Shown piece by piece: positions 14,981 to 41,985 of a stretch of DNA of 64,000 nt (position 1 is the stretch's first letter; each line of letters opens with the position of its first letter). Location of the stretch: contig NZ_CP122539.1 in the NCBI RefSeq assembly GCF_029853675.1, forward strand, positions 1,543,001-1,607,000, written 5' to 3'. Made by a program: the position numbers and the translations under genes. The notes under the pieces were generated by a model. That model made no database searches. It was given only the letters and a program-made list of their open reading frames with translations, and had not been told where the DNA came from. The DNA is from Tenacibaculum tangerinum. GTDB lineage: Bacteria > Bacteroidota > Bacteroidia > Flavobacteriales > Flavobacteriaceae.

Positions 14981-15002
14981 AATTTTGTTGTAAAAGAGAT
15001 TG

Positions 15003-26074: not shown

Positions 26075-26758
26075 ATGAGAATAGAAAAACAATCTGTGTT
26101 AATTGCAGATAATTGTCCGTTAATTTGCGAGACATACCAGAATATAATATCTAAAATTGCTAGACTAAATCCTAATTTTAGTTTTAACACTGATATTACT
26201 TACAATTGTAATGGAGCTTACGACATTGTGAAGAAAACAATTGAAAAAGAAACTACTCTAAATTTTATTGTTTTAGACTTAAAGCTCTCTCCTTCTAATA
26301 ATAGAAAAATACTTTCTGGAGAAGATCTTGGACTTTTAGTAAGAAAGTTATTACCCAGTACCAAAATAATTATTTGTACTGACTGTAATGACAACTACAG
26401 AATTCATAGTGTTTTTAAAAGTTTAAATCCAGAAGGTTTTATTATAAAAAACGACTTAACTTCAAAAGAACTAAAAAACGCAATAAAGAATATAACAAAC
26501 AATATTCCTTACTACAGCAAAACAGTTTTAAGTCTTTTAAGAAAAGAAGTTTCTAACAACTTTTCTATAGATTCATTAGACCGTAAAATTTTATATGAAC
26601 TTTCCTTAGGCTCTAAAATGAAAGAAATGCCTAATTACATCCCTCTTTCTGCTGCAAGCATTGAAAAGCGTAAAAGACATCTAAAAAAAGTTTTTAATGT
26701 AAAAGCTAAAGGAGATAGGGAGTTGATATTAATAGCCAAAGAAAAAGGCTTTATTTAG
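26075..26758 (+). CDS. NarL/LuxR-type response regulator, orphan
   Basis: 227 residues from the ATG at 26075 (a TTG 6 bp earlier is possible). Receiver domain 1-130: acidic site in LIADN, phosphoacceptor Asp in FIVLDLKLS, Thr in IICTD and Lys in GFIIKND. The C-terminal helix-turn-helix (about 165-225) is LuxR-like but divergent. No histidine kinase is adjacent. It precedes the VKOR fusion and the peptide genes by 115 bp and is the natural candidate to control them; this is an inference from position. Confidence 0.82.
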   Translation: MRIEKQSVLIADNCPLICETYQNIISKIARLNPNFSFNTDITYNCNGAYDIVKKTIEKETTLNFIVLDLKLSPSNNRKILSGEDLGLLVRKLLPSTKIIICTDCNDNYRIHSVFKSLNPEGFIIKNDLTSKELKNAIKNITNNIPYYSKTVLSLLRKEVSNNFSIDSLDRKILYELSLGSKMKEMPNYIPLSAASIEKRKRHLKKVFNVKAKGDRELILIAKEKGFI

Positions 26759-26873
26759 AAATAAAAATACGATTTTTCCTTACTTTTTTTATGGTTTTTC
26801 TATAAAAAAGATCAAAATCAAAAATTAGTTTTGGGAAAAAATTAAAATAGTTATTCTTTAAAATCCTTTACCA

Positions 26874-28463
26874 TTGAAAGACACATTAATCAATTTAGTA
26901 CAAAAATTACTTAAGAAAAACAAAATTTCTTTTGACAAAGAAGAGTTGGCTTTTCAAATTCAAAGCCATCCTTCTTATCCGAGTTTACATGCAATAACAG
27001 GTGTATTAGATCATTTTAACATTGAAAATGTTGCTGCCGACGTTCCTGTAAATTCAGAAACGCTCTCACAACTGCCCGATTGCTTTATTGCACAAATAAA
27101 CACCGATTATGGTCAAGATTTAGTTGTTATCGAAAAAAACGACATTGAATACATTATTCATAATTCAGAAAATAAAAAAGAAAAAATATCTGAAGATGAT
27201 TTTCTTAGTAAGTTTACAGGTATTATCGTAGCTGTTGAAGAAACAGAAAATTATCAAGCACCTAAAGACAATACTAAGCTAGCAAAAGCTGTCGGCTTTT
27301 CTCTAATTATTGGTCTAGCATTATTTCATGTATTCAACAACACCTCTTCTTGGTACAGCACTTTCTTTTTTCTGCTATCGATAGTAGGCGTTTTTATTAG
27401 CGTTGCCATTGTTAAGCAAGAATTAGGGCTAAAAACCTCTATTGGAGATGCTTTTTGCTCAGGTACTGACGATAAAAAAGACTGTGATGCCGTGTTAACC
27501 TCTAAAGGCGCAGAAGTTTTTAAGGGGTATAAATTAAGTGATTTCTGTATCCTTTATTTTTCTGGGTTATCACTTTTAACCTTTATACAAATTTCTAATC
27601 CTGTAATATCTTACACTATCAGTTTACTCGCTGTACCTATTACTCTATACTCTTTATACTACCAATACGCTGTGGTAAAAAAATGGTGTCTTTTGTGTTT
27701 GAGTATTGTTGGAGTACTATGGCTACAAGCTTTAATTCCCGTTTTAAGCAATAGCTATATAGAGGAATTTGTCGTAGCTGATTTTATTACCTTTGGATTG
27801 GTTGCTACTCTAACATGGATTACATGGAACTATATAAAACCTTTATTTACTGAAGTTAATGAACTTAAAAAAGAAAAAATTGAAAGTGTAAAATTCAAAA
27901 GAAACTATGCGCTATTTGATAATTTACTTCAAAAATCGCCTCAAATCGACACGCAATTAGATAATAGTCAAGAAATTGTATTTGGCAATCCAAACGCTAA
28001 CCTAGAATTAACCATTATCACCAATCCTTTTTGCGGACATTGTAAGCCTGTTCATGCCCATGTTGATGAAATTTTTAAAAGGTATCAAGATAAGGTAAAA
28101 ATCAAGATACGTTTCAACATCAATACAGAAGATAAAGAAAATGATATTGTAAAGATTACTAGTAGGCTTATAGAAATATACAACACCAAGGGTGAAAAAG
28201 AGTGCCTAACTGCCATGGACGCTATTTACGAAGGGCAAAAACCTGCCGATTGGTTAAAAGAATGGGGTACCTGTGAAAATAAAGAGCCATATATTGCTGT
28301 ACTAGAAGAAGAAAAAAAATGGTGTACAGAAAACGCTATCAACTTTACTCCAGAAATATTAATTAATGGAAGATCATTTCCAAAAGAATACAAAAGAACT
28401 GATTTAATACTATTTATTGAAGACCTAGAAGAAAATTCTCAAGTTTTAATGAGTAGTATGTAA
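26874..28463 (+). CDS. VKOR-thioredoxin fusion with C39-like N-terminal domain
   Basis: 529 residues from a TTG start. Residues 1-125 resemble a C39 peptidase domain but lack the catalytic Cys. Four to five membrane helices follow (about 137-320) with the vitamin K epoxide reductase cysteines: loop pair C195/C204 and active-site C272-L-L-C275. The C-terminal domain (about 365-529) is DsbA/thioredoxin-like with CGHC at 387-390 and extra cysteines later. This is a complete self-contained pathway for making disulfides: the Trx domain oxidises substrates and VKOR passes electrons to quinone. It lies directly before dozens of Cys-rich peptide genes, which are its likely substrates. Confidence 0.88.
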   Translation: MKDTLINLVQKLLKKNKISFDKEELAFQIQSHPSYPSLHAITGVLDHFNIENVAADVPVNSETLSQLPDCFIAQINTDYGQDLVVIEKNDIEYIIHNSENKKEKISEDDFLSKFTGIIVAVEETENYQAPKDNTKLAKAVGFSLIIGLALFHVFNNTSSWYSTFFFLLSIVGVFISVAIVKQELGLKTSIGDAFCSGTDDKKDCDAVLTSKGAEVFKGYKLSDFCILYFSGLSLLTFIQISNPVISYTISLLAVPITLYSLYYQYAVVKKWCLLCLSIVGVLWLQALIPVLSNSYIEEFVVADFITFGLVATLTWITWNYIKPLFTEVNELKKEKIESVKFKRNYALFDNLLQKSPQIDTQLDNSQEIVFGNPNANLELTIITNPFCGHCKPVHAHVDEIFKRYQDKVKIKIRFNINTEDKENDIVKITSRLIEIYNTKGEKECLTAMDAIYEGQKPADWLKEWGTCENKEPYIAVLEEEKKWCTENAINFTPEILINGRSFPKEYKRTDLILFIEDLEENSQVLMSSM

Positions 28464-28478
28464 GCTATATATAAAAGA

Positions 28479-28500
28479 CAAAGCCCCGTAAAGGGCTTTG
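28479..28500 (+). terminator. Hairpin after the VKOR gene
   Basis: CAAAGCCC / GGGCTTTG stem with a short loop. No T-run follows, so it may only weaken transcription or protect the upstream mRNA. Confidence 0.5.
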
Positions 28501-28514
28501 CATGTTTGAACAAA

Positions 28515-28566
28515 ATTCTCTCGCGAAGAATAGACACAATGGTGAGTGTCTTTAAATGTTCGCCGC
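28515..28566 (+). promoter_or_regulatory. Leader element copy 1: hairpin plus predicted H-type pseudoknot
   Basis: ATTCT...AGAAT hairpin with CTCGCGA loop, then AGACAC (28532-28537) pairing with GTGTCT (28546-28551). Loop bases GGTGA (28541-28545) can pair with TCGCC (28560-28564) downstream. In all other copies the loop is CCTTGA and the partner TCAAGG, so this copy has compensating changes on both sides. Lies 25 nt before the first peptide gene. Not matched to a known riboswitch class. Confidence 0.65.
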
Positions 28567-28590
28567 AAAAGTAACCTTAATATTTGAATT

Positions 28591-28785
28591 ATGAAAAAAC
28601 AAATTTTAAACTTAGGTAAAGCTTTAAAAAAAGCGGAACAAAAAAAAGTTAGTGGAGGAGGACATATTATCTCTCCACGTGAATGTTGTGGTGGTACTGG
28701 GGGTATAATAGTAAACTCTGTACACTGTTCAATGGGAACTTACGGAACAGATTACTGTAACGGACGATGCTGGGCTTGTTATTAA
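28591..28785 (+). CDS. GG-leader Cys-rich secreted peptide 1
   Basis: 64 residues. The leader begins MKKQILNLGKALKKAEQ and ends VSGG at 23, the cleavage site for C39 ABC transporters. The 41-residue core has 6 Cys, spacing CC-x12-C-x9-C-x3-C-x2-C, ending CWACY. Peptide 7 is almost identical in core and peptide 8 has the same spacing. Likely exported by the ABC transporter at 31297 and oxidised by the VKOR fusion. Biological activity (bacteriocin, signal or effector) is unknown. Confidence 0.85.
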   Translation: MKKQILNLGKALKKAEQKKVSGGGHIISPRECCGGTGGIIVNSVHCSMGTYGTDYCNGRCWACY

Positions 28786-28801
28786 TTAAAAACTAAACAT
28801 C

Positions 28802-29011
28802 ATGAAAAAACAGATTTTAAACTTAGGTAACGCTTTAAATAAAGCAGAACAAACTCAAATTAATGGAGGTTTAAAATTAAAGCCTACTCTATGTTGTGAT
28901 CCAGCACTGAGATGCTGTACCACAAGTCATTTAGCTCAAAACAATGCCAGTTGTGGAGGAACATATATTTCAGGCTGCCAATACCATCCAGCAACAGAGT
29001 GTTGTATCTAA
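28802..29011 (+). CDS. GG-leader Cys-rich secreted peptide 2
   Basis: 69 residues; leader ends INGG. The 46-residue core has 8 Cys, three of them as CC pairs, ending ECCI. 16 bp after peptide 1, so same transcript. No close relative of this core in the window. Confidence 0.83.
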   Translation: MKKQILNLGNALNKAEQTQINGGLKLKPTLCCDPALRCCTTSHLAQNNASCGGTYISGCQYHPATECCI

Positions 29012-29022
29012 AAACATTTATC

Positions 29023-29259
29023 ATGAAAAAACAAATTTTAAACTTGGGTACTATTTTAGACAAAGCAACTCAAAAGCTAATTAATGGAGGTGATAATCCT
29101 GTAGGTTTTTGTGACGAGAATAACAGTTGCCCTTCTGGTCAATATTGTAACGGATTTTATTGCTATGTAGATAATGATAATGGTGCAGGTGGCAGTAACA
29201 ATTGTACTCATCCGTGGCAGTTTTGTCCAAATGGCGGCATTAGCTGTACAGGGTGTTAA
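29023..29259 (+). CDS. GG-leader Cys-rich secreted peptide 3
   Basis: 78 residues from the ATG at 29023, which restores the standard leader (an upstream in-frame ATG lies inside peptide 2 and is rejected). Core has 8 Cys: C-x5-C-x5-C-x4-C, then a Gly/Asn/Asp-rich linker, then four more. Two-module core shared with peptide 9. Confidence 0.83.
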   Translation: MKKQILNLGTILDKATQKLINGGDNPVGFCDENNSCPSGQYCNGFYCYVDNDNGAGGSNNCTHPWQFCPNGGISCTGC

Positions 29260-29278
29260 TCAGTAAAAACTAAAGATC

Positions 29279-29482
29279 ATGAAAAAACAAATTTTAAATT
29301 TAGGTAACGCTTTAAATAAAGCAGAACAAACCCGAATTAACGGAGGAAGACCAACATATTGTCAATGTGACTCTGACTGTGGAGGTGGACAACACTGTTG
29401 TAGTAATATATGTTATTACCCCTCAGCTCCTAACTATCCTACAGGCAATTGCCCTGCTCAACCCTGCCTTAAGTTAGAATAG
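29279..29482 (+). CDS. GG-leader Cys-rich secreted peptide 4 (knottin-like spacing)
   Basis: 67 residues; leader ends INGG. Core has 8 Cys, including DC-x5-CC-x3-C-x13-C, the order seen in cystine-knot peptides, plus two extra cysteines. Confidence 0.83.
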   Translation: MKKQILNLGNALNKAEQTRINGGRPTYCQCDSDCGGGQHCCSNICYYPSAPNYPTGNCPAQPCLKLE

Positions 29483-29605
29483 TTTTCAATTCAAACGTAA
29501 GCTCATTTAAAAACCATTGTAACTTTTGAAATATATTATGTAATACATATGATTTATAAGTTGAGCTTTCTTTAATTTTTTAAAAACAACTTTAAACTTC
29601 TAAAT

Positions 29606-29764
29606 ATGAAAAAACAACTTTTAAACTTAGGTAAAGTTTTAAACAAAGCAGAACAAACTTTAATTAACGGAGGTAGAATGCAATGCGATGCTAATAGAGA
29701 CCGTATATGTGAAGACTTTGGCTGGAAATGTGCAGAAACTTACTGCCAATTAATGCCTTTTTAA
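29606..29764 (+). CDS. GG-leader Cys-rich secreted peptide 5
   Basis: 52 residues. Leader begins MKKQLLNLGKVLNKAEQ and ends INGG. Short core with 4 Cys, C-x7-C-x6-C-x4-C, containing EDFGW. Paralog of peptide 10 with the same spacing. Preceded by about 120 bp of AT-rich sequence with a loose inverted repeat, so a separate promoter is possible. Confidence 0.82.
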   Translation: MKKQLLNLGKVLNKAEQTLINGGRMQCDANRDRICEDFGWKCAETYCQLMPF

Positions 29765-29766
29765 TC

Positions 29767-29952
29767 ATGAGAAAATCAATTTTAAACTTAGGTAAAGCTT
29801 TAAACAAAGCTGAACAAAAAATTATTAGTGGAGGCGGTCTTAGATCTTGTTCACCCTTTTTTGGTGCATGTCGTTTTAATTCAGATTGTTGTACTGAAGA
29901 GAATGATGGCTACCCTGTTCATTGCATCAATAGAGTTTGTATTCCAACATAA
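29767..29952 (+). CDS. GG-leader Cys-rich secreted peptide 6 (knottin-like spacing)
   Basis: 61 residues from the ATG at 29767, two bases after the stop of peptide 5. Leader begins MRKSILNLGKALNKAEQ and ends ISGG. Core cysteines C-x6-C-x5-CC-x10-C-x4-C match the general inhibitor-cystine-knot pattern. Confidence 0.83.
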   Translation: MRKSILNLGKALNKAEQKIISGGGLRSCSPFFGACRFNSDCCTEENDGYPVHCINRVCIPT

Positions 29953-29999
29953 AAAGTAGAACCTAAACATTAGGTCTTGAAACCTTTAAAAACTTAACA

Positions 30000-30188
30000 A
30001 TGAAAAAACAAATTTTAAAATTAGGTAACGCTTTAAAAAAAGCAGAACAAAAAAAAGTTAGTGGAGGACGTAACCCACTACTTGCATGTTGTGGTGGTAC
30101 TGGGGGTATAATAGTAAACTCTGCACACTGTTCAATGGGAACTTACGGAACAGATTACTGTAACGGACAATGCTGGGCTTGTTATTAA
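30000..30188 (+). CDS. GG-leader Cys-rich secreted peptide 7
   Basis: 62 residues; leader ends VSGG. Core with 6 Cys almost identical to peptide 1 (differences mainly right after the cleavage site), and the following intergenic bases are also the same as after peptide 1. Marks the start of a duplicated block. Confidence 0.85.
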   Translation: MKKQILKLGNALKKAEQKKVSGGRNPLLACCGGTGGIIVNSAHCSMGTYGTDYCNGQCWACY

Positions 30189-30204
30189 TTAAAAACTAAA
30201 CATC

Positions 30205-30387
30205 ATGAAAAAACAGATTTTAAACTTAGGTAAACCTTTAAATAAATCGGAACAACAATTCATTAATGGGGGACGTGATCCACAGTGTTGTGGTGGTACA
30301 GGAGGTATGGAAATAGATTCTTTACACTGTGAATATGGGCTCTTTGGCACAGATTACTGCAACGGAAAATGCTTTTGGTGCTATTAA
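30205..30387 (+). CDS. GG-leader Cys-rich secreted peptide 8
   Basis: 60 residues; leader ends INGG. Core has the same CC-x12-C-x9-C-x3-C-x2-C spacing as peptides 1 and 7 but most residues between have changed, which shows a conserved framework with variable loops. Confidence 0.84.
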   Translation: MKKQILNLGKPLNKSEQQFINGGRDPQCCGGTGGMEIDSLHCEYGLFGTDYCNGKCFWCY

Positions 30388-30403
30388 TCAAAAACTAAAA
30401 ATC

Positions 30404-30652
30404 ATGAAAAAACAAATTTCAAACTTGGGTACAGTTTTAGACAAAACAACTCAAAAACTAATTAATGGAGGTGACGACATCATTGGTTTTTGTGACTATC
30501 AAGGAAATTGCCCAGCTGGAAGTTATTGCGAAAACGATTTCTGTGTCAAAGACCATTCATCGGGAGGTGGACCTGGTGGTGGTGGGTCTGGGTGTATTAA
30601 TCCTCATAGATTTTGTGAAAACGAGTACGACACCTGTTGCTACTACGCATAA
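30404..30652 (+). CDS. GG-leader Cys-rich secreted peptide 9
   Basis: 82 residues from the ATG at 30404. Leader like that of peptide 3 (NLGTVLDKTTQKLINGG). 8 Cys in two modules joined by a Gly-rich linker with GGGPGGGG. The longest peptide of the family in this window. Confidence 0.83.
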   Translation: MKKQISNLGTVLDKTTQKLINGGDDIIGFCDYQGNCPAGSYCENDFCVKDHSSGGGPGGGGSGCINPHRFCENEYDTCCYYA

Positions 30653-30696
30653 AATAACAATCAATTTAACAATATTAATATTAAAAAACAAAACAA

Positions 30697-30855
30697 ATGA
30701 AAAAACAACTTTTAAACTTAGGTAAAGTTTTAAACAAAGCAAAACAAACTCAAATTAATGGAGGTAGAAGGCAATGCGACATCAATGGAGACCGCATATG
30801 TGAAGACTTTGGTTGGAGATGTGCAGAAACTTACTGCCAATTAATATCTATTTAA
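30697..30855 (+). CDS. GG-leader Cys-rich secreted peptide 10
   Basis: 52 residues; paralog of peptide 5, same C-x7-C-x6-C-x4-C spacing and EDFGW segment. Leader ends INGG. Confidence 0.82.
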   Translation: MKKQLLNLGKVLNKAKQTQINGGRRQCDINGDRICEDFGWRCAETYCQLISI

Positions 30856-30857
30856 TC

Positions 30858-31046
30858 ATGAAAAAACAAATTTTAAGATTAGGAAAAATTTTGCCAAAGG
30901 CAGAACAAACTAAAATTAATGGGGGTATAGCTATCGCATGCTACTCTCATGCAGATTGCCCTAGACACATGGGATGCTGTAAAGACAGCCCTTATGTTGG
31001 ATTATGTATGGAAGGAGAAGATTACAGAATGTATTGTGATAATTAA
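30858..31046 (+). CDS. GG-leader Cys-rich secreted peptide 11 (knottin-like spacing)
   Basis: 62 residues from the ATG at 30858, two bases after peptide 10. Leader ends INGG. Core C-x5-C-x5-CC-x8-C-x9-C, six cysteines in cystine-knot-like order. Confidence 0.83.
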   Translation: MKKQILRLGKILPKAEQTKINGGIAIACYSHADCPRHMGCCKDSPYVGLCMEGEDYRMYCDN

Positions 31047-31058
31047 AAAGCAAAACAA

Positions 31059-31235
31059 ATGAAAAAACAAATTTTAAATTTAGGGAAAGCTTTAGATAAA
31101 AAACAACAATCTAAAATTAATGGAGGTTTTTTTTCTTGTGTAAGATCCTCAGATTGCTCAGGTAGATATGATTGTTGCTCAGGAGGTACATGTATAAACA
31201 CTAGTTACGCCTTTTTGCAACCTTATTGCTCATAA
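31059..31235 (+). CDS. GG-leader Cys-rich secreted peptide 12 (knottin-like spacing)
   Basis: 58 residues. Leader begins MKKQILNLGKALDKKQQ and ends INGG. Core C-x5-C-x5-CC-x4-C-x11-C. Last peptide of the first block, followed by a strong hairpin. Confidence 0.83.
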   Translation: MKKQILNLGKALDKKQQSKINGGFFSCVRSSDCSGRYDCCSGGTCINTSYAFLQPYCS

Positions 31236-31243
31236 TAATTACT

Positions 31244-31282
31244 ATAACTAGGTTAGAAATTGTATATTTCTAACCTAGTTAT
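31244..31282 (+). terminator. Strong hairpin between peptide block 1 and the ABC transporter gene
   Basis: A perfect 17-bp inverted repeat, 31244-31260 with 31266-31282, loop TGTAT. No long T-run after it; likely partial terminator that reduces transporter expression relative to the peptides. Confidence 0.7.
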
Positions 31283-31296
31283 ACATTATAACAAAA

Positions 31297-33489: not shown

Positions 33490-33493
33490 AAAC

Positions 33494-33546
33494 ATTCTAT
33501 CGCGAAGAATAGACACAAACCTTGAGTGTCTTTAAACGGTTCAAGG
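33494..33546 (+). promoter_or_regulatory. Leader element copy 2
   Basis: Begins 4 bp after the ABC transporter stop. ATTCT-ATCGCGA-AGAAT hairpin, AGACAC/GTGTCT stem, and CCTTGA/TCAAGG pseudoknot pairing. Lies before peptide 13. Confidence 0.65.
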
Positions 33547-33574
33547 ATTAATTAAATTTCTAAATTTTTTAATC

Positions 33575-33748: not shown

Positions 33749-33763
33749 TCAAAAAACAATATC

Positions 33764-33961: not shown

Positions 33962-33991
33962 TACATAATCAATTATTTAAACTATTTAATT

Positions 33992-34147: not shown

Positions 34148-34219
34148 TTGGTAATGTAATTTTCCAAAGAGGTAACTATAATACAAACTTCTTAGTATTT
34201 AACTTAATAAATTTTAAAC

Positions 34220-34447: not shown

Positions 34448-34463
34448 TTAAAAAAATAAGAAA

Positions 34464-34673
34464 ATGAAAAAATCAATTTCAAAACTAGGAAATACTTTAA
34501 ACAAAATTGAACAACAACAAATCAATGGAGGGTATTTTATTCCTGTAGGTGATTCAGATGGTGAGTGTGATCAAGAATCACAATCAAAAATTAGGTGTTA
34601 TCATGGGAGTAACAGAAATTGCGATATGGATGCTATATGTAATAACCAAGGTTACTGTGAATGTGCCGTCTAA
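34464..34673 (+). CDS. GG-leader Cys-rich secreted peptide 17
   Basis: 69 residues; leader ends INGG. Acidic core with 6 Cys, ending YCECAV. The pattern C-x7-C-x7-C-x5-C-x5-C-x1-C differs from the other groups. Confidence 0.82.
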   Translation: MKKSISKLGNTLNKIEQQQINGGYFIPVGDSDGECDQESQSKIRCYHGSNRNCDMDAICNNQGYCECAV

Positions 34674-34685
34674 AAACAAAATAAC

Positions 34686-34892
34686 ATGAAAAAATCAATT
34701 TTAAAACTAGGAAATACTTTAAACAAAATCGAACAACAACAAATCAACGGTGGAGGCGGATTTCTATTCCACAAATGCTTTGATTATTTCTTTTGTGCTT
34801 TTGACTGCCAAGAGGGTGATGCTTGTGCTGTTCCAAATGGAAGAGGAGGAGTCAACAGAGGAGTTATAAAAAACGGACAGTGTTGCGTGTAA
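34686..34892 (+). CDS. GG-leader Cys-rich secreted peptide 18
   Basis: 68 residues; leader ends INGGGG, so the exact cut is uncertain. 6 Cys; the C-terminal half (EGDACAV...RGVIKNGQCC) is related to peptide 27. Confidence 0.82.
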   Translation: MKKSILKLGNTLNKIEQQQINGGGGFLFHKCFDYFFCAFDCQEGDACAVPNGRGGVNRGVIKNGQCCV

Positions 34893-34912
34893 AAAAATAA
34901 TTATAACAAACT

Positions 34913-34945
34913 ACAGAGAGAAAGTTTAACCTACTTTCTCTCTGT
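34913..34945 (+). terminator. Hairpin before the HlyD gene
   Basis: ACAGAGAGAAAG at 34913-34924 pairs with CTTTCTCTCTGT at 34934-34945. It closes peptide block 2; the HlyD start is 21 bp later. Confidence 0.65.
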
Positions 34946-34965
34946 TAAAACATTTTAAAGACTTA

Positions 34966-36252: not shown

Positions 36253-36255
36253 AAA

Positions 36256-36308
36256 ATTCTTTCGCGAAGAATAGACACAAACCTTGAGTGTCTTTAAACA
36301 GTTCAAGG
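36256..36308 (+). promoter_or_regulatory. Leader element copy 3
   Basis: Starts 3 bp after the HlyD stop; hairpin ATTCTTTCGCGAAGAAT, AGACAC/GTGTCT and CCTTGA/TCAAGG all present. Before peptide 19. Confidence 0.65.
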
Positions 36309-36336
36309 GTTAATTAATTTTTTAAATTTTTTAATC

Positions 36337-36498
36337 ATGAAAAAATCAATTTTAAACTTAGGTAAAGCTTTAAATAAAACTTCCCAAAAACAAATTAATG
36401 GTGGTTATCCTGCAATTCCTGATGAACAAAAATGTAAAGATTATTGTTTGTACGAACGTTTTGATGGAGTCTTTTATTTAGGCTGTTGCTCTTATTAG
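36337..36498 (+). CDS. GG-leader Cys-rich secreted peptide 19
   Basis: 53 residues; leader has TSQKQINGG, as in peptides 29 and 30. Core with 4 Cys, ending GCCSY. Confidence 0.81.
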   Translation: MKKSILNLGKALNKTSQKQINGGYPAIPDEQKCKDYCLYERFDGVFYLGCCSY

Positions 36499-36766
36499 AG
36501 CTGAGTAAAGGATTCTCTTAAACCTCCTTAATAGGTAGAGGGAATTTTTCCCTATATCTTAATCTCAAAATACAATACAAAGTATGTGAGTTGGTATCCA
36601 GTTAACTTTAACCCAGAACACCTATGCCTATATAATTTAAAATAAAGGTAATATAACAATCCTTCACTTTCTTACCAAAATGAAAGGACCAGCAGACATT
36701 GTAACTGAAGATTTACGTTTGATAGAACGTTTTTTCTATCAACTTAAAAATAGTATTAAATAAAAA
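36499..36766 (+). repeat. Non-coding copy of the hlyD 3' end
   Basis: Bases about 36650-36763 repeat the last hundred bases of hlyD with few changes near the end, including the arms TTGATAGAA / TTCTATCAA and the stop. A 27-codon open frame remains but has no sign of independent function. The first 150 bp hold only a short GGGAA/TTCCC hairpin. Leader element copy 4 follows directly, so hlyD tail, element and peptide moved together. Confidence 0.8.
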
Positions 36767-36819
36767 ATTCTTTCGCGAAGAATAGACACAAACCTTGAGT
36801 GTCTTTAAACTGTTCAAGG
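36767..36819 (+). promoter_or_regulatory. Leader element copy 4
   Basis: All three pairings conserved. It follows the hlyD-tail copy and precedes peptide 20. Confidence 0.65.
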
Positions 36820-36846
36820 GTTAATTAATTTTTAAATTTTTTAATC

Positions 36847-37017
36847 ATGAAAAAATCAATTTTAGACTTAGGAAAAACTTTAAATAAAGCATATCAAAAA
36901 CAAATCAACGGAGGAGATATGCAAGCTACCTGTGAAGATTTGGGATGGAACGAATATACATGTCCTTATGCAACCTCTCAACAGCGAGCATCCGAAGGTT
37001 ACAGAAGATGTTGTTAA
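36847..37017 (+). CDS. GG-leader Cys-rich secreted peptide 20
   Basis: 56 residues; leader ends INGG. Core with 4 Cys ending RRCC; the CEDLGW segment recalls CEDFGW of peptides 5 and 10. Confidence 0.81.
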   Translation: MKKSILDLGKTLNKAYQKQINGGDMQATCEDLGWNEYTCPYATSQQRASEGYRRCC

Positions 37018-37160
37018 TGTAAAACTTTGAGAAATGAAGAGGTAAAAAGGGATATAAGAAAAATACTTTTGCAAAGGTTCTAATTGAAAGTATGCAGAAA
37101 TGGTATCGTACTAATTTACGACAATGCATTTTATTCTTTTGAAATTTCTAAAAACTATGT

Positions 37161-37187
37161 GTGAGGAGAAATTCTAATTCTCCTCAC
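37161..37187 (+). terminator. Hairpin before the hlyD pseudogene
   Basis: GTGAGGAGAA / TTCTCCTCAC stem. It occupies the same place as the hairpin before the intact hlyD, which supports a duplication of the whole unit. Confidence 0.6.
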
Positions 37188-37230
37188 TTTAAACAAATTG
37201 AATCGTACATTATTTGTTATTAAACAAATC

Positions 37231-37702
37231 AAAACCGACATAGAAATTAGAACTAAAGAGGTTCTAGAAACCTTATCCCATATACCAATTAGCTAATTCA
37301 TTGAGACAACATCATGCTTATTTGTCATGCTATATTGCTGTATTCATAAAATGCAATGATTTAATTTTTCTACTGTAGTGATAATTATCAACACTACGAC
37401 TAGTGAAAAAATCTAAGTAAAAATAAGAAGGATAATTCCAAACCTTTTTCATAAAGAAAGACGATAGTGTTTCTGAAAGAGATGTTCTAGCTGCTATTGA
37501 AAACAATGCTTCCTGTAAGGATACATTATTACTTAAAATTATTGGAAAAAACTATTAAGATTAAATCGACAAAAGACTCAAAACAACCTATAACAAAACC
37601 ATTCCTTTCAGACAAGAGATGAAAGGAACAGAAGACATCCTAACTGAAGATTTACGCTTGATAGAACGTTTTTTCTATCAACTTAAAAATAGTATTAAAT
37701 AA
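37231..37702 (+). pseudogene. Decayed second copy of hlyD
   Basis: The start matches the intact gene from its fourth codon region (GACATAGAAATTAGAA) and the lipoyl part (GTGTTTCTGA, GAAAACAATGCTTCCTG) is recognisable. There are stop codons and an internal loss of roughly 800 bp, joining to CAAAACAACCTATAACAAAA and the conserved 3' end. 472 bp remain of about 1287. The region 37018-37230 before it holds only the hairpin and no gene. Confidence 0.85.
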
Positions 37703-37706
37703 AAAA

Positions 37707-37759
37707 ATCTCTCGCGAAGATATAGACACAAACCTTGAGTGTCTTTAAACGGTTCAAGG
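37707..37759 (+). promoter_or_regulatory. Leader element copy 5
   Basis: Upstream hairpin is shifted to ATCT-CTCGCGA-AGAT, keeping pairing on both sides; AGACAC/GTGTCT and CCTTGA/TCAAGG intact. Before peptide 21. Confidence 0.65.
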
Positions 37760-37786
37760 ATTAATCAAATTTTTAAATTTTTAATC

Positions 37787-37951
37787 ATGAAAAAATCAAT
37801 TTTAAACTTAGGAAGAACTTTAAACAAGATTGACCAAAAACAAATTAACGGAGGTAGCTATAGAACGCAAGAAGAGTGTCTTGCCGCAGGTTGTTTTTGG
37901 GGGTTAGACGCTTACACAAACAAGTGGAGGTGTGTTTGTCCACTATTCTAA
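37787..37951 (+). CDS. GG-leader Cys-rich secreted peptide 21
   Basis: 54 residues from the ATG at 37787, which gives the standard leader. Core C-x4-C-FWG-x9-C-x1-C; the C-x4-CFWG part and following 12-residue loop match peptide 23. Confidence 0.82.
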   Translation: MKKSILNLGRTLNKIDQKQINGGSYRTQEECLAAGCFWGLDAYTNKWRCVCPLF

Positions 37952-38000
37952 ATATAAAAGAAAATAAAAAACTCTTTTAACCTAATAAATAACATTGTAA

Positions 38001-38036
38001 AACAAAAACCTTGAGTATCTTTTAAAAGGTTCAAGG
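38001..38036 (+). promoter_or_regulatory. Leader element copy 6 (truncated)
   Basis: CCTTGA and TCAAGG remain but the upstream hairpin and AGACAC arm are lost. Before peptide 22, whose cleavage site is also abnormal. Confidence 0.5.
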
Positions 38037-38055
38037 ATTAATTAAATTTTTAATC

Positions 38056-38247
38056 ATGAAGAAATCAATTTTAATTTTAGGAAAAGTTTTAAACAAAAAA
38101 GAACTAAGAAAAATAAACGGGAAACTTGGAAATACTTGTGATGGTCCTGAAAAATACTACGTAAACAATTGTAGAGAATGTATAAATACTATTCTACCAG
38201 GAGCTCCAACATTCTGCTTCAACAATTGCTGTGTCATGGCATACTAA
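38056..38247 (+). CDS. Cys-rich secreted peptide 22, leader ends Gly-Lys
   Basis: 63 residues. Leader conserved to INGK: Lys replaces the second Gly, which C39 peptidases normally do not accept. Core has 6 Cys with one CC pair. Either inactive for export or processed at another site; its leader element is truncated as well. Confidence 0.72.
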   Translation: MKKSILILGKVLNKKELRKINGKLGNTCDGPEKYYVNNCRECINTILPGAPTFCFNNCCVMAY

Positions 38248-38291
38248 TTAGTTTCTTTACTCTCGTAGTAAGTATTGAATAAAAAGTAAAA

Positions 38292-38345
38292 ATTCTTTCG
38301 CGAAGAATAGACAACAAGCCTTGAGTGTCTTTAAACGGTTCAAGG
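38292..38345 (+). promoter_or_regulatory. Leader element copy 7
   Basis: Hairpin ATTCTTTCGCGAAGAAT and CCTTGA/TCAAGG present; one inserted A gives AGACAAC, bulging the first stem. Before peptide 23. Confidence 0.58.
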
Positions 38346-38365
38346 ATTAATTAAATTTTTAAATT

Positions 38366-38563
38366 ATGAAAAAATCAATTTTAAACTTAGGTAAGACTTT
38401 AAGTAGAAACGAACAACAAGAAATTAAAGGAAAAGGTCACATAACGACTCGATGTAGTAAAATACAAGATGAAGCAACGTGTGTTGAAAATCACTGTTTT
38501 TGGGGCAAGAACAGTAGTGGTGGTGATTGGTATTGTTCATACCCAGGACTGCCTCCTTTATAA
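38366..38563 (+). CDS. Cys-rich secreted peptide 23, leader ends Gly-Lys
   Basis: 65 residues; cleavage region IKGKG instead of INGG. Core with 4 Cys: C-x8-C-x4-C-FWG-x9-C, related to peptide 21. Confidence 0.74.
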   Translation: MKKSILNLGKTLSRNEQQEIKGKGHITTRCSKIQDEATCVENHCFWGKNSSGGDWYCSYPGLPPL

Positions 38564-38720
38564 TTGAAAGAACTTAGTAGGAAATATTTCCTGTATTATT
38601 TTTATTTTCCCCCTGTGAACTAGCATTTTAGTCTTATTTACTATTAAATATTTTTAAAAAAGTAAAAGCACTAATAGGCATTGAGTTTCCTAGGGATTAA
38701 ACAACTTTAAATTTTTAATG

Positions 38721-38918
38721 ATGAAAAAATCAATTTTAAACTTAGGTAAAGCTATAAGCAAATCTAAACAAAAACAAATTAGTGGTGGAAATGATGCTCC
38801 AATGGGTGACTGTTATGAACCAGGAAGCTACCCTCTTATTCTAATTGGTCATGCTCCTTGTGACGGAGTAAGTACATGTCCAGGTGGAGGATTACCCTTT
38901 TGTTTTGCTACGTTCTAA
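38721..38918 (+). CDS. GG-leader Cys-rich secreted peptide 24
   Basis: 65 residues from the second of two adjacent ATGs (38718 is the other). Leader ends ISGG. Core with 4 Cys beginning NDAPMGDCYEPG, related to peptide 28. The region just upstream (about 38655-38720) holds a worn remnant of the leader element. Confidence 0.8.
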   Translation: MKKSILNLGKAISKSKQKQISGGNDAPMGDCYEPGSYPLILIGHAPCDGVSTCPGGGLPFCFATF

Positions 38919-39306
38919 TTCAATTAAGAGCCGTAGAGGACTCACCCTTCTATTTTAATTAAAGATCAAAACATTTTTATCTTTATTAGAAAAAGAAAAT
39001 GGTATTAGTTAAACTAATATTATAAGACCGTTGCAGGAATAACATTCTGGTTATTATTGTAATAAAAAACGATTTCCTTTTGTGAAAAACGATTTTAAAC
39101 ATAAAAATAATTAGATTTTTATCTTTTTTGTAAAAAATACAAAAGCGCAGATAAACTATGCTTTTCAACCCTGCAACGGTCTTACTACTATAAAACTAAA
39201 TTATTTCTTTCACACTCGAAAGGAAAGGAATAGTAAACATTATAACTAAAAATTCACGTTTAATAAAATACTTTTCTATCAAACTAAAAATATAATCAAA
39301 TAAAAA
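38919..39306 (+). other. Gene-free region with MITE-like element and decayed hlyD tail
   Basis: No gene. 39023-39184 is a small inverted-repeat element (separate entry). About 39207-39303 is a heavily changed copy of the hlyD 3' end, again directly before a leader element. Confidence 0.6.
39025..39182. mobile_element. MITE-like element with 13-bp terminal inverted repeats
   Basis: AGACCGTTGCAGG at the left end and its exact complement CCTGCAACGGTCT at the right end, 158 bp in all, flanked on both sides by TA (possible target duplication). No transposase inside. TA targets suit IS630/mariner or some IS5-type elements; the family is not determined. Confidence 0.6.
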
Positions 39307-39359
39307 ATTCTTTCGCGAAGAATAGACACAAGCCTTGAGTGTCTTTAAACGGTTCAAGG
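39307..39359 (+). promoter_or_regulatory. Leader element copy 8
   Basis: All pairings conserved; loop AAGCCTTGA instead of AAACCTTGA. Before peptide 25. Confidence 0.65.
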
Positions 39360-39386
39360 ATTAATTAAATTTTTAAATTTTTAATC

Positions 39387-39548
39387 ATGAAAAATCAAAT
39401 TTTAAAATTAGGTAAAGTTCTAAACAAAACTGAGAGACAAAAAATTAATGGAGGCAGGGAAGTAAACTGTATTCACTATGCTATCTGTCCACCATATAAC
39501 GAAGTTTCATGCATCATTATAGCAGGGAGGTGTTACTACAATGGATAA
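39387..39548 (+). CDS. GG-leader Cys-rich secreted peptide 25
   Basis: 53 residues. Leader begins MKNQILKLGKVLNKTER and ends INGG. Core with 4 Cys, C-x6-C-x7-C-x6-C. Confidence 0.81.
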   Translation: MKNQILKLGKVLNKTERQKINGGREVNCIHYAICPPYNEVSCIIIAGRCYYNG

Positions 39549-39953
39549 AATCTATAAAAGATAAATTTTAAGTTTAGAAAAATTTATTAGTAAAACTGCC
39601 ATAATTTCGTATACATAAAAATATAGTAATCATTGTTCTTTTATGTACTAGATTGCATCGCTTTTGATACTTTACCTATTAATTGAGTATAAGAATCATC
39701 TATAAAATACTAATAAATGAGTGTTATGATTTATAATTTATTAAACAAAAATTAACTTTAAATCATGTAACGTTTCTAACAAAATAGAATTGTTTGTAAA
39801 TCTTCACTTAAAATATGTAAAAACTTGTAGCTATAACAACCAAAATTTTAAGATTCCTTCTAAAAACAAAAAGAAGCTATTGATATAGCTACAAGATGAT
39901 TGCGTTTGATAGATTCTTTTTCTGTCAACTTAAAAAATAGTATTCAATATAAA
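39549..39953 (+). other. Gene-free region with decayed leader and hlyD-tail remnants
   Basis: Around 39556-39597 the bases resemble a leader coding region (compare ATTTTAAGTTTAGAAAA) but carry stops: a dead peptide gene. About 39880-39953 is a worn copy of the hlyD 3' end (TTGATAGA ... CTGTCAACTT). Nothing else recognised. Confidence 0.5.
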
Positions 39954-40006
39954 ATTCTTTCACGAAGAATAGACACAAACCTTGAGTGTCTTTAAACGGT
40001 TCAAGG
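39954..40006 (+). promoter_or_regulatory. Leader element copy 9
   Basis: Hairpin loop TTCACGA (one change); both pseudoknot stems intact. Before peptide 26. Confidence 0.65.
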
Positions 40007-40025
40007 ATTTATTAAATTTTTAATC

Positions 40026-40217
40026 ATGAAAAATCAAATTTTTAACTTAGGGAAAGTACTCAATAAAAAAGAACTAAAAAAAATTAAAGGAAGTGTTGGT
40101 TTTGGTGAGTTCGGATGTAATACAGATTTAGATTGTGATTCGTATAGACTAAGATGTTGTCATGGGGTTTGCTTAAGCTTTGACTCTCAATACGACGCTT
40201 TCTGCAATATTGTTTAA
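40026..40217 (+). CDS. Cys-rich secreted peptide 26, leader ends Gly-Ser (knottin-like spacing)
   Basis: 63 residues. Leader begins MKNQIFNLGKVLNKKEL and ends IKGS. Core C-x5-C-x6-CC-x3-C-x10-C, six cysteines in cystine-knot-like order. Confidence 0.8.
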   Translation: MKNQIFNLGKVLNKKELKKIKGSVGFGEFGCNTDLDCDSYRLRCCHGVCLSFDSQYDAFCNIV

Positions 40218-40277
40218 ACACTAGAATCAATTAAAACTTATAATAAAAAGAAGAATTTGTAAAAGAACATCTAAAAA

Positions 40278-40330
40278 ATTCTTTCGCGAAGAGTGGACAT
40301 GAACCTTGAGTGTCTTTAAACTGTTCAAGG
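40278..40330 (+). promoter_or_regulatory. Leader element copy 10
   Basis: First stem is GGACAT/GTGTCT: both changed bases still pair as G-U in RNA. Hairpin ATTCT/AGAGT also keeps pairing through a U-G pair. CCTTGA/TCAAGG intact. Before peptide 27. Confidence 0.68.
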
Positions 40331-40356
40331 ATTAATTAATTTTTAATTTTCTAATT

Positions 40357-40575
40357 ATGAAAAAATCAATTTTAAACTTAGGGAAAACCTTAAACAAAGT
40401 TGAACAAAAACGAGTACAAGGAGGTATGGTAATACTTAGATGCTCTTCTGGAAATTGCTATTCAGACAATTGGGTCTCTGGTGGCACTTCTGAAGGTGAT
40501 ACATGTGCTGTATTATTTGGCTACGGAGATTACTGTCGAGGTGTAATTAATAATAATGAATGCTGCATCAATTAA
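40357..40575 (+). CDS. GG-leader Cys-rich secreted peptide 27
   Basis: 72 residues; leader ends VQGG. 6 Cys; EGDTCAV and RGVINNNECC match peptide 18. Confidence 0.82.
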   Translation: MKKSILNLGKTLNKVEQKRVQGGMVILRCSSGNCYSDNWVSGGTSEGDTCAVLFGYGDYCRGVINNNECCIN

Positions 40576-40588
40576 AATTAATAAAATT

Positions 40589-40780
40589 ATGAAAAATCAA
40601 ATTTTTAACTTAGGTAAAATTCTTAGTAAACCTGAACAAAAAAAAGTAAATGGAGGTAATGATGAACCCAACTCTAGAGGTTGCTACGAGCAGCCTGTTG
40701 CCGATGTGGAATGTATAAGCCCATGGGTGTACGTTTCTGGTTGCGGTTTTACTTGCATGATTGCTCCTACATGGCCTTAA
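40589..40780 (+). CDS. GG-leader Cys-rich secreted peptide 28
   Basis: 63 residues from the ATG at 40589, 13 bp after peptide 27 (same transcript). Leader ends VNGG. Core with 4 Cys beginning NDEPNSRGCYE, related to peptide 24. Confidence 0.82.
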   Translation: MKNQIFNLGKILSKPEQKKVNGGNDEPNSRGCYEQPVADVECISPWVYVSGCGFTCMIAPTWP

Positions 40781-40941
40781 TTCTAAAGAACTAAGGTATA
40801 CTAGAATAAAAATGAATTTGAATAAATAAAAAACGATACGTGATATGAGTCAAATAGTATCTGTTATTTGAATGTATTTACATTCTTACTTGAAACTAAT
40901 TCATTTTTAAAATGGCATTCTCTAATGTTTTATCAAAAAAC

Positions 40942-40977
40942 AGACACAAACCTTGAGTGTCTTTAAACTGTTCAAGG
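40942..40977 (+). promoter_or_regulatory. Leader element copy 11 (no upstream hairpin)
   Basis: AGACAC/GTGTCT and CCTTGA/TCAAGG present; the 5' hairpin is missing. Before peptides 29-30. The stretch 40781-40941 has no gene. Confidence 0.58.
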
Positions 40978-41004
40978 ATTAATTAATTTTTAATTTTTTT
41001 AATC

Positions 41005-41190
41005 ATGAAAAAATCAATTCTAAACTTAGGTAAAGCTTTAAATAAAACTTCCCAAAAACAAATTAATGGTGGAGCTAATTATGGTGGTGGCTGCTATCAA
41101 AAATCTGTTCATATATGTTGCCAGTACTATTCTTGGGGAGAGTTTTGTGATGCAGGTAAGTGTGGTACGTTCGGTTGTTTTTGGTATTAA
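41005..41190 (+). CDS. GG-leader Cys-rich secreted peptide 29
   Basis: 61 residues; leader ends INGG. Core C-x7-CC-x8-C-x4-C-x4-C, ending CFWY. Adjacent tandem copy is peptide 30. Confidence 0.84.
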   Translation: MKKSILNLGKALNKTSQKQINGGANYGGGCYQKSVHICCQYYSWGEFCDAGKCGTFGCFWY

Positions 41191-41208
41191 CCTTAAAAAT
41201 TTTTAATC

Positions 41209-41394
41209 ATGAAAAAATCAATTTTAAACTTGGGTAAAGCTTTAAACAAAACTTCCCAAAAACAAATTAATGGAGGGATTAACTATGGTGGTGAGTGCTA
41301 CCAACTGCTTGATAATACATGCTGTCAATATTACTCTTGGGGAGAATTTTGTGATACTGGACGGTGTCGTGGAGACGGTTGTCATTTTTATTAA
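41209..41394 (+). CDS. GG-leader Cys-rich secreted peptide 30
   Basis: 61 residues; tandem paralog of peptide 29 with identical Cys spacing and QYYSWGEFCD in common, but changed loops. Confidence 0.84.
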   Translation: MKKSILNLGKALNKTSQKQINGGINYGGECYQLLDNTCCQYYSWGEFCDTGRCRGDGCHFY

Positions 41395-41410
41395 TCTCAA
41401 ATTTTTAGTC

Positions 41411-41577
41411 ATGAAAAATCAATTTTAAACGTAGGAAAAGCTTTAAATAAAGCTGAACAAAGAAAAGTAAATGGAGGTCTTGACCCTTATTTATGCACCC
41501 TTAACGACCCTTGTTTTATTTATGATAGTGGGGGTATATGCACAGATGTGTGTATGCACGATCCAGATGGACAATAA
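41411..41577 (+). pseudogene. Frameshifted GG-leader peptide gene
   Basis: After the ATG there are five A instead of six, so translation stops at codon 6. With one base restored, the frame gives a normal leader (ILNVGKALNKAEQRKVNGG) and a core with 4 Cys ending HDPDGQ. No alternative ATG in the good frame. A homopolymer sequencing error or phase variation cannot be excluded. Confidence 0.75.
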
Positions 41578-41746
41578 CAGTAAGAATTAAATATCTGCTT
41601 TTAAGTTAATTTTGAAGCTGGCTTTAAAATTACGACTTGTTTTTTAAGCTTTAATTATCAACAATATGTGTTTTTAAATATTAGAGTATAAGAAACGACA
41701 AAGTATACATGAAAACTGAGAGTTTCCTTAAAACTGTATGTAAAAA

Positions 41747-41799
41747 ATTCTTTCGCGAAGAATAGACACAAACCTTGAGTGTCTTTAAACTGTTCAAGG
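41747..41799 (+). promoter_or_regulatory. Leader element copy 12
   Basis: All three pairings conserved. Before peptide 32. The 169 bp between it and the pseudogene hold nothing recognised. Confidence 0.65.
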
Positions 41800-41826
41800 A
41801 TTAATTAAATTTTTAAATTTTTAATC

Positions 41827-41985
41827 ATGAAAAAATCAATTTTAAACTTAGGTAAGGCTTTAAACAAAGCGGAACAAGAAAACATTAATGGAGGATGGGT
41901 ATATGCCCCAGGAGATGGCAAAAGTTGTGACTTTTGGGGGTGGTGTGAAAACGAATTTGGTAGATGTCACTACTGCGGAGTTTGA
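41827..41985 (+). CDS. GG-leader Cys-rich secreted peptide 32
   Basis: 52 residues; leader ends INGG. Core with 4 Cys, rich in Trp/Gly (CDFWGWCENEFGRCHYC). Last intact member of the cluster. Confidence 0.83.
   Translation: MKKSILNLGKALNKAEQENINGGWVYAPGDGKSCDFWGWCENEFGRCHYCGV

Follow-up and report, generated by a model that had tools for sequence, protein, structure and literature searches.

A proposed leader-guided VKOR-DsbA maturase and a pseudoknot RNA in a many-peptide secretion cluster of Tenacibaculum tangerinum

Organization of the peptide locus

Here, we describe a 64,000-nucleotide stretch of the Tenacibaculum tangerinum genome (contig NZ_CP122539.1, positions 1,543,001 to 1,607,000; hereafter the window), part of a 3.61-Mb single-contig genome, that carries 31 genes for leader-bearing, cysteine-rich peptides together with one C39 peptidase ABC exporter, one HlyD-type adaptor and one fusion protein of the VKOR family. 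All genes of this cluster lie on the plus strand, in the order response-regulator-like gene, VKOR fusion, 12 peptides, exporter, 6 peptides, HlyD and 13 peptides. The cluster is flanked upstream by an ATPase gene (23111-25936), which we take from its sequence to be a uvrA-like ABC ATPase, and downstream by a gene at 42427. Positions below are those of the window unless stated otherwise.

26069..26758, plus strand: response-regulator-like gene, candidate cluster regulator (weak NCBIfam match to RespRegMctR, 44 bits where the cut-off is 300)
26874..28463, plus strand: fusion of C39-like domain, extra transmembrane (TM) helix, VKOR and DsbA-like domain, 529 amino acids, proposed leader-guided inverted disulfide maturase (Pfam C39/VKOR/Thioredoxin_4, AlphaFold2 model, PDB matches, charge test)
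26874..27245, plus strand: C39-like domain of the fusion (residues 1-124), without the catalytic Cys and proposed to bind the leader
31297..33489, plus strand: C39 peptidase ABC exporter of the PCAT type (Pfam; match to PCAT1 4ry2, residues 4-723, E 7e-105)
34966..36252, plus strand: HlyD-type adaptor (Pfam HlyD_3)
37238..37702, plus strand: HlyD gene remnant, putative trace of cassette duplication (DNA identity to the HlyD gene)

Open reading frames of at least 150 amino acids between 26.0 and 42.4 kb comprise only the regulator-like gene (26069), the fusion, the exporter and HlyD. Among frames of this size there is neither a LanM nor any other lanthionine enzyme (26-42 kb), no modification-enzyme-like gene besides the fusion, and no immunity-gene-like frame, small frames not having been searched for the latter. 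The exporter carries an active-type C39 domain (Pfam C39, 131.6 bits) with the motifs DCGP, NHYVV and ISDP, as read in the sequence, fused to an ABC transporter, the arrangement that defines PCAT/AMS exporters. PADLOC matched the exporter alone, and we take the models concerned to be ATPase matches.

Leader peptides and cysteine parity

A six-frame leader scan identified exactly 31 intact leader peptides (28591..41985), listed below with their core Cys, and a broken 32nd copy.

28591..28785, plus strand: peptide 1, 6 Cys
28802..29011, plus strand: peptide 2, 8 Cys
29023..29259, plus strand: peptide 3, 8 Cys
29279..29482, plus strand: peptide 4, 8 Cys, weak WAP-like match just below the Pfam cut-off
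29606..29764, plus strand: peptide 5, 4 Cys
29767..29952, plus strand: peptide 6, 6 Cys, C-C-CC-C-C
30000..30188, plus strand: peptide 7, 6 Cys, core 78% identical to peptide 1
30205..30387, plus strand: peptide 8, 6 Cys
30404..30652, plus strand: peptide 9, 8 Cys
30697..30855, plus strand: peptide 10, 4 Cys, core 76% identical to peptide 5
30858..31046, plus strand: peptide 11, 6 Cys, C-C-CC-C-C
31059..31235, plus strand: peptide 12, 6 Cys, C-C-CC-C-C
33575..33748, plus strand: peptide 13, 4 Cys
33764..33961, plus strand: peptide 14, 6 Cys, C-C-CC-C-C
33992..34147, plus strand: peptide 15, 6 Cys
34220..34447, plus strand: peptide 16, 6 Cys
34464..34673, plus strand: peptide 17, 6 Cys
34686..34892, plus strand: peptide 18, 6 Cys
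36337..36498, plus strand: peptide 19, 4 Cys
36847..37017, plus strand: peptide 20, 4 Cys
37787..37951, plus strand: peptide 21, 4 Cys
38056..38247, plus strand: peptide 22, 6 Cys
38366..38563, plus strand: peptide 23, 4 Cys
38721..38918, plus strand: peptide 24, 4 Cys
39387..39548, plus strand: peptide 25, 4 Cys
40026..40217, plus strand: peptide 26, 6 Cys, C-C-CC-C-C
40357..40575, plus strand: peptide 27, 6 Cys
40589..40780, plus strand: peptide 28, 4 Cys
41005..41190, plus strand: peptide 29, 6 Cys
41209..41394, plus strand: peptide 30, 6 Cys
41411..41577, plus strand: 32nd copy, reading frame broken within the leader
41827..41985, plus strand: peptide 31, 4 Cys

The leader is 23 residues long in 31/31 peptides, contains no Cys and ends in GG (27 peptides), GS (2) or GK (2), with the cut following residue 23. 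By contrast, Cys makes up 14.1% of core residues, against 0.88% in long reading frames. A looser matrix scan gave no match in five shuffled windows. Every core holds an even number of Cys (4 in 11 peptides, 6 in 16, 8 in 4), for which chance alone would give a probability of 9e-10 if parity were free (two-sided test, the paralogues not being independent). This parity is what complete disulfide pairing predicts. It extends to 237/242 leader peptides from 20 loci of relatives (18 genomes) and to 298/306 over all loci scanned, the window included. A leader-independent search around fusion homologues found at least one double-glycine-type candidate in 73 of 79 named loci, with 419 candidates on the strand of the fusion (384 of them with an even and 35 with an odd Cys number) and 2 on the opposite strand; leaders in Roseivirga were of the same type, those in Saprospiraceae and Bacteroidales look different.

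The 31 peptides use 11 different Cys frameworks, in which adjacent CC pairs are frequent. The C-C-CC-C-C framework (29767, 30858, 31059, 33764 and 40026) is the third commonest, occurring in 43/306 peptides. This is the spacing type of inhibitor cystine knots, and these peptides are a lead towards putative knottins.

Mean pairwise DNA identity among the 31 genes is 0.76 in the leader (0.69 at third codon positions), drops at the GG codon and is 0.30 across the 60 bases that begin the core. Even the 11 pairs whose leader DNA is at least 90% identical have a median core identity of 0.26, below 0.35 in 7 and at least 0.5 in 3, and homologues of peptide 6 have the leader in common but hardly the core. 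An initial annotation of this DNA, made from the letters and their translations, had claimed 31 double-glycine-leader, Cys-rich peptides, a near-constant leader on diverse cores and the lack of a lanthipeptide enzyme, all of which our scans bear out; its proposal that one exporter and one dedicated oxidase serve many probable disulfide peptides is well supported by the data below. It also named the C39 exporter, the HlyD adaptor and a VKOR-thioredoxin protein, which Pfam recovers, although the last is more than that, being made up of C39-like, VKOR and DsbA-like domains and probably inverted. That annotation did not include the C39-like domain or the charge pattern of the oxidase, the RNA element, the remnants of HlyD or the fact that Cys parity is exact.

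Among the matches listed, many cassette DNA matches begin in the 5' untranslated region (5'UTR) or the last bases of an HlyD copy and stop at the leader-core junction. Positions 37238-37574 are 70% identical to nucleotides 17-362 of the HlyD gene and 37570-37702 are 90% identical to its 3' end, with further HlyD 3' tails at 36678-36763, 39191-39303 and 39893-39949. These remnants suggest that peptide cassettes spread via duplication and carried the end of HlyD along. Few cores are held in common with relatives: counterparts of at least 70% identity exist for 4 of the 31 cores in each of G054, G022 and G077, for 1 in G073 and for none in G027, as judged from 15-21 peptides in the retrieved stretches, which do not contain all leader matches of these genomes. 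Of the 11 loci L179-L189, 10 have an exporter match, and in all 10 the exporter is 94-96% identical to that of the window (31297-33489), whereas identity of the neighbouring fusion reaches just 67-80% and most of the cores are different. Such conservation could reflect either strong constraint or exchange between species; the exporter would meet only the constant leader, while the oxidase would also have to cope with the cores.

The C39-like-VKOR-DsbA fusion and its orientation

The fusion encoded at 26874 has an N-terminal C39-like domain followed by VKOR and DsbA-like domains, and is 81% identical to a homologue in T. ascidiaceicola, with other close homologues in T. discolor and others. Its C39-like domain, recognized by Pfam and by the structure match, is without the catalytic Cys, as in the C39-like domain (CLD) of HlyB. 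Residues 1-20 are free of Cys in 58/58 close homologues but in 6/36 of a more diverse set (the alignments hold 58 of 120 among 667 homologues and 36 of 57 full-length fusions, respectively). The oxidase itself may thus bind the peptide leader. The six redox Cys (C195, C204, C272, C275, C387 and C390) are invariant in the 36 aligned sequences and form the loop pair, the VKOR CXXC and the DsbA-like CXXC characteristic of a VKOR-DsbA oxidase, and the VKOR part of the AlphaFold2 model matches the fold of Synechococcus VKOR in the PDB. A phmmer search of the fusion against PDB sequences gave no match at E 0.001, and a profile search matched thioredoxin alone. When the C39-like domain was compared as a profile with two exporter C39 domains, the probability was 0.1 (two-sequence profile, global mode), so that the C39-like assignment is carried by the Pfam and structure matches.

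Hydropathy and the AlphaFold2 model indicate six membrane helices, one more than in Synechococcus VKOR, the additional one lying ahead of the first helix of that protein. Six helices would place the redox loops of VKOR on the same side of the membrane as both the C39-like and the DsbA-like domain. Lysine plus arginine counts near the membrane average 9.8 on this redox side and 1.0 on the other in the 36 aligned fusions, all of which show the bias; over the 57 full-length fusions the values are 9.9 and 0.9, again with a redox-side bias in 57/57. Control VKORs without a C39 domain, sampled across the phylum, average 2.1 and 8.0 and follow the usual direction in 22/23 cases. This first control count omitted 6 of 29 loci (L156, L165, L167, L170, L171 and L178), which visual inspection had set aside because of wrong starts, a different architecture or the presence of a C39 domain. 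Once these are restored, L170 (a truncated, fusion-like frame) and L178 (a C39 fusion) show the pattern of the fusions, and among the four non-C39 loci L165 follows the usual direction, L156 and L167 run opposite and L171 is a tie, which leaves 23/27 controls in the usual direction with one tie. The charge bias is thus uniform and strong in the fusions and mostly, not always, opposite in controls. Canonical periplasmic VKORs have their positive charges opposite the redox side, and the fusions do not. The first hydrophobic segment of the fusion is centred at about residue 143-151, so the N-terminal domain should stay cytoplasmic. Judged by these sequence features, the fusion is probably an inverted VKOR whose redox side faces the cytoplasm. 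Such an orientation would explain a leader-binding domain on an oxidase, which would meet the precursor before the exporter removes its leader.

A conserved 5'UTR pseudoknot

Twelve peptide genes of the window, mostly those heading runs, are preceded by a conserved element of about 53 bases, consisting of a hairpin, P0, followed by stem P1 (GACAC/GTGTC) interleaved with stem P2 (CCTTGA/TCAAGG), which together make an H-type pseudoknot. The ends of the copies are approximate.

28515..28565, plus strand: RNA element (hairpin and H-type pseudoknot), variant P2 stem
33494..33546, plus strand: RNA element
36256..36308, plus strand: RNA element
36767..36819, plus strand: RNA element
37706..37759, plus strand: RNA element
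37983..38036, plus strand: RNA element, P0 and P1 degenerate
38292..38345, plus strand: RNA element
39307..39359, plus strand: RNA element
39954..40006, plus strand: RNA element
40278..40330, plus strand: RNA element
40925..40977, plus strand: RNA element, P0 hairpin lost, pseudoknot kept
41747..41799, plus strand: RNA element

We aligned 113 copies (12 from the window, 94 from 20 loci of relatives, 7 from L130 and L136), chosen upstream of the 306 leader peptides by a GAGTGTCTTTAA core with at most 2 changes within 120 nucleotides; the row of peptide 31 was placed by hand. Because the copies were selected on this core, P1 is biased, while the 3' arm of P2 is unbiased. P2 pairs at no fewer than 5 of 6 positions in 112/113 copies and at all 6 in 104. 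Of the 31 copies with a deviating P2 5' arm, 30 pair with their own partner at 5 positions or more; with partners drawn from consensus copies the mean is 18.1 and the maximum 23 (500 draws); pairing at all 6 positions is seen in 23 against 8.1 (maximum 9). Across 16 pairs, 92.5% of alignment cells pair, which falls to 28-57% when the partner is slid by 1-3 columns, and 57 cells are changed on both sides against 15.3 in shuffles. Nine pairs are changed on both sides; the shuffles give 6.8, and 18/500 of them reach nine. P0 pairs most weakly (78-84% of cells). A third hairpin between pseudoknot and start codon was dropped as a candidate (mean z +0.28 in 108 rows).

Rfam at gathering score found five tRNAs in the window and no match to the element; at low threshold, the best matches of one copy were to unrelated families (E 2.8-5). 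The five tRNA genes form a separate cluster on the minus strand at 13429-15202. In its own genome, the element model has 12 matches, and all 11 among the matches listed lie in the cluster. Between 28400 and 42100, a sigma-70 scan gave 44 promoters against 58.8 in shuffles, hence no excess, and a terminator scan gave 8 terminator-like sites, all of them away from the RNA elements, with a loop limit of 8 bases that is too short to register the P2 hairpin. In G046, the element precedes peptides whose leader is of another sequence and which lie next to a distant fusion; the element therefore seems to belong to the peptide system rather than to the leader sequence. The pseudoknot probably governs translation or stability of the peptide messages, while attenuation or a ligand switch may also be its role.

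Distribution and co-occurrence

We searched 97 genomes of the genus and 199 of the family, the latter with nearly one genome per genus. In the genus, 27 genomes have the fusion and 27 the leader, with both in 25 and neither in 68 (Fisher 1e-18, kinship ignored). The RNA element model matches 27/97, including 26 of the 27 with the fusion, so that fusion, RNA and leader each mark 27 genomes with pairwise overlaps of 25-26. The leader occurs alone in G012, where the genome is 67% complete, and in G017; the fusion occurs alone in G046 and G063. The family sample has 30 fusion matches and 24 leader genomes, 23 with both, 7 with the fusion alone and G189 with the leader alone (6e-23, kinship ignored); in G134, which is counted among the 30 and the 23, the fusion match is just a 35-residue stretch. 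The initial annotation had named absence of the oxidase from most peptide-bearing genomes as evidence that would overturn it; a fusion match is present in 25/27 leader-positive genomes of the genus and 23/24 of the family. Around the fusion, the 62 named loci with both 10-kb flanks contain an exporter match in 46, HlyD in 45 and a homologue of the regulator in 12, upstream of the fusion in the loci mapped. Leader-model matches number 42 in the T. tangerinum genome and more in G012 (58), G079 (58), G071 (51), G060 (49), G003 (45) and G088 (44), so larger peptide sets exist.

Outside the cluster, the T. tangerinum genome has ten of its leader-model matches (E up to 0.001), at contig sites C1:692615, 1099335, 1516596, 2374213, 2477974, 3216495 and 3510545 (L120, L121, L124-L128). 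The matrix scan found ten peptides at these sites, each with an even Cys number and without an RNA element in the adjoining 120 nucleotides; the machinery of the cluster may export them too. A second cluster of this genome (L123:4202-11028, C1:3172201-3179027) has a distant C39-VKOR-DsbA fusion (26% identity). Its neighbours are a further C39 exporter, a protein resembling ATP-grasp enzymes and a Cys-rich one resembling SPASM proteins, and directly upstream lie two short double-glycine peptides. The cluster looks like an ATP-grasp/SPASM peptide system, and with a fusion in such a cluster the family seems to serve several peptide classes. A fragment of another fusion gene at L122:9171-10130 (C1:2538170-2539129), 60% identical over its first 164 residues, ends beside an open reading frame that is presumably transposase-like; the fragment is probably a dead second copy.

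Proposed mechanism and alternative explanations

We propose, with a probability of about 0.64, that the cluster encodes a many-substrate secretion system in which a leader-guided inverted VKOR fusion forms disulfides in the cytoplasm before C39-dependent export. The precursors all bear one interchangeable 23-residue double-glycine-type leader, and many runs of their genes begin with a 5'UTR pseudoknot that probably controls translation or stability. The 26874 protein would recognize the leader through its proteolytically dead C39-like domain and sit inverted in the inner membrane, such that this domain, the VKOR active site and the DsbA-like domain face the cytoplasm. The DsbA-like domain would then oxidize, and perhaps reshuffle, the core Cys pairs of the bound precursor, and VKOR would hand the electrons to membrane quinone, the usual acceptor of this family. 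The active C39 domain of the exporter would next bind the leader, cleave after GG and export the core via HlyD. From family resemblance, our most likely guess is that the peptides are toxins against competing bacteria. Whether the system represents a natural RiPP-like class (ribosomally synthesized and post-translationally modified peptides), widespread in Flavobacteriaceae and other Bacteroidota, with disulfides formed in the cytoplasm ahead of export by a leader-guided inverted VKOR-DsbA maturase, one leader for dozens of unrelated Cys frameworks and a new pseudoknot RNA controlling the messages, we regard as evenly balanced.

Several observations weigh against this proposal. The positive-inside rule is statistical and no measurement, and a longer stretch before TM1 entered the count for controls than for fusions; without this stretch, the usual direction holds in 20/23 of the controls first kept and 20/27 overall, and all 4 non-C39 loci initially omitted run the opposite way. 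The AlphaFold2 model has a predicted TM-score of 0.49 and a mean pLDDT of 79.5, mostly 68-82 across the C39-like domain. The cytoplasm is reducing, and disulfides formed there must persist until export. Odd Cys numbers occur in 8/306 leader peptides, 3 of the 8 within locus L116, and in 35/419 leader-independent candidates, including four with 7 Cys in L256 and five odd ones in L216; with odd candidates present and several of them grouped, even parity is a strong tendency and no law. Position -7 of the leader is Gln in 27/31 peptides and hydrophobic in the published motif. Finally, the fusion occurs without leader-model peptides in 7/30 family and 2/27 genus genomes.

If the fusion instead had the usual VKOR orientation, with the C39-like domain in the periplasm or the extra helix not spanning the membrane, it would oxidize the cores after export. 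The periplasm is the usual site of disulfide formation, a clostridial VKOR and a VKOR-DsbA fusion aid periplasmic folding in E. coli according to part of PMC12453122, the VKOR part has the Synechococcus fold and a few non-fusion VKORs share the charge bias of the fusions. We nevertheless consider this arrangement unlikely, though to be taken seriously: the charge pattern is reversed in 57/57 fusions while most controls keep the usual direction, a folded N-terminal domain some 120 residues long would need to be moved across the membrane without a signal peptide, and a leader-binding fold would be of little use once the leader is gone. Even Cys counts and frequent adjacent CC pairs would equally suit clusters that bind zinc or copper, or cores with some other modification, the VKOR fusion then serving something else. 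That the peptides are accompanied by a thiol oxidase in one genus after another, that 31 peptides display 11 frameworks and that the cluster has no other modification-enzyme-like frame of at least 150 amino acids make this very improbable.

A similar question arises for the RNA element, whose repeats might be a DNA-level operator, a palindrome bound by the response regulator, with a second half that is no RNA structure. Around TTCTYTCGCGAAGAA, the first part of the element is close to a palindrome, some species have a regulator-like gene at the start of the cluster, P0 is the weakest stem and the nine two-sided pair changes were matched by 18/500 shuffles. However, P2 pairing survives two-sided changes (112/113 copies at 5/6 or better; 30/31 deviating arms against a mean of 18.1 and a maximum of 23), sliding the partner by 1-3 columns cuts pairing from 92.5% to 28-57%, and the copy at 40925 keeps the pseudoknot without the palindrome. 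An operator thus appears improbable.

Comparison with known systems

Prochlorosins likewise combine one machinery with many precursors, a constant leader and hypervariable cores; they differ in their LanM-made lanthionine rings, whereas the present cluster has no LanM and disulfides are expected. The analogy drawn in the initial annotation consequently fits for leader and core and fails for the lanthipeptide enzyme. A natural VKOR topology permitting cytoplasmic oxidation has a possible precedent in Aeropyrum pernix, whose VKOR Hibender (2017) reportedly described as acting in two compartments; this is an archaeal, general oxidase that is not known to have a C39-like domain or a link to peptides.

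VKOR/DsbB inverted by engineering has been used to form cytoplasmic disulfides in E. coli (PMC5471842), and such chemistry is therefore possible in that compartment. Like the proposed maturase, the engineered enzyme is a VKOR turned to oxidize cytoplasmic thiols; it is man-made and not known to have a leader-binding domain, while the fusion is natural and predicted to be dedicated to peptides. If the orientation is true, bacteria have reached unaided what engineers do with inverted VKOR, steered by a core-tolerant leader, and the system could become a tool to make chosen disulfide peptides. The hundreds of cores in related genomes make up an untested library of peptides, and the pseudoknot appears to be a regulatory element of a new kind. 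The degenerate C39-like domain also has a counterpart in HlyB, whose CLD lacks the catalytic Cys and is thought, in the passages concerned of PMC6363468, to recruit the substrate; the domain belongs to the exporter in that system and to the oxidase in this one. Among the titles and abstract beginnings listed, most subscription journals not being covered, none describes a C39-VKOR-DsbA fusion with such peptides; a term search of PMC4555120 found no C39 and no fusion, and the part of PMC5306230 consulted treats VKORc1 and not an inverted VKOR.

The nearest described system is that of the bacteroidetocins (class IIf, Bacteroidetes). Its account in the relevant passages of PMC6671954 has in common with the present cluster a Gram-negative host in Bacteroidota, a double-glycine leader, a Cys-containing core and a C39-type ABC exporter, as well as a thiol oxidoreductase gene in the region, which we liken to the VKOR fusion by description. 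Deletion of that gene weakens activity, the enzyme being needed for full activity. The same passages give bacteroidetocin leaders of 15-16 residues ending in GG, against 23 in 31/31 here, place a gene for a five-TM protein beside the peptide, of which there is none here among open reading frames of at least 150 amino acids, and are silent on any 5'UTR pseudoknot and on any domain of the oxidoreductase that would bind the leader. They count 36 peptides in 35 regions, about one per locus. The present cluster goes beyond the bacteroidetocins in its massive substrate expansion, the C39-like domain on its oxidase, the apparent inversion of this enzyme and its RNA, and there is a fair chance that the mechanism of the oxidase is new in kind.

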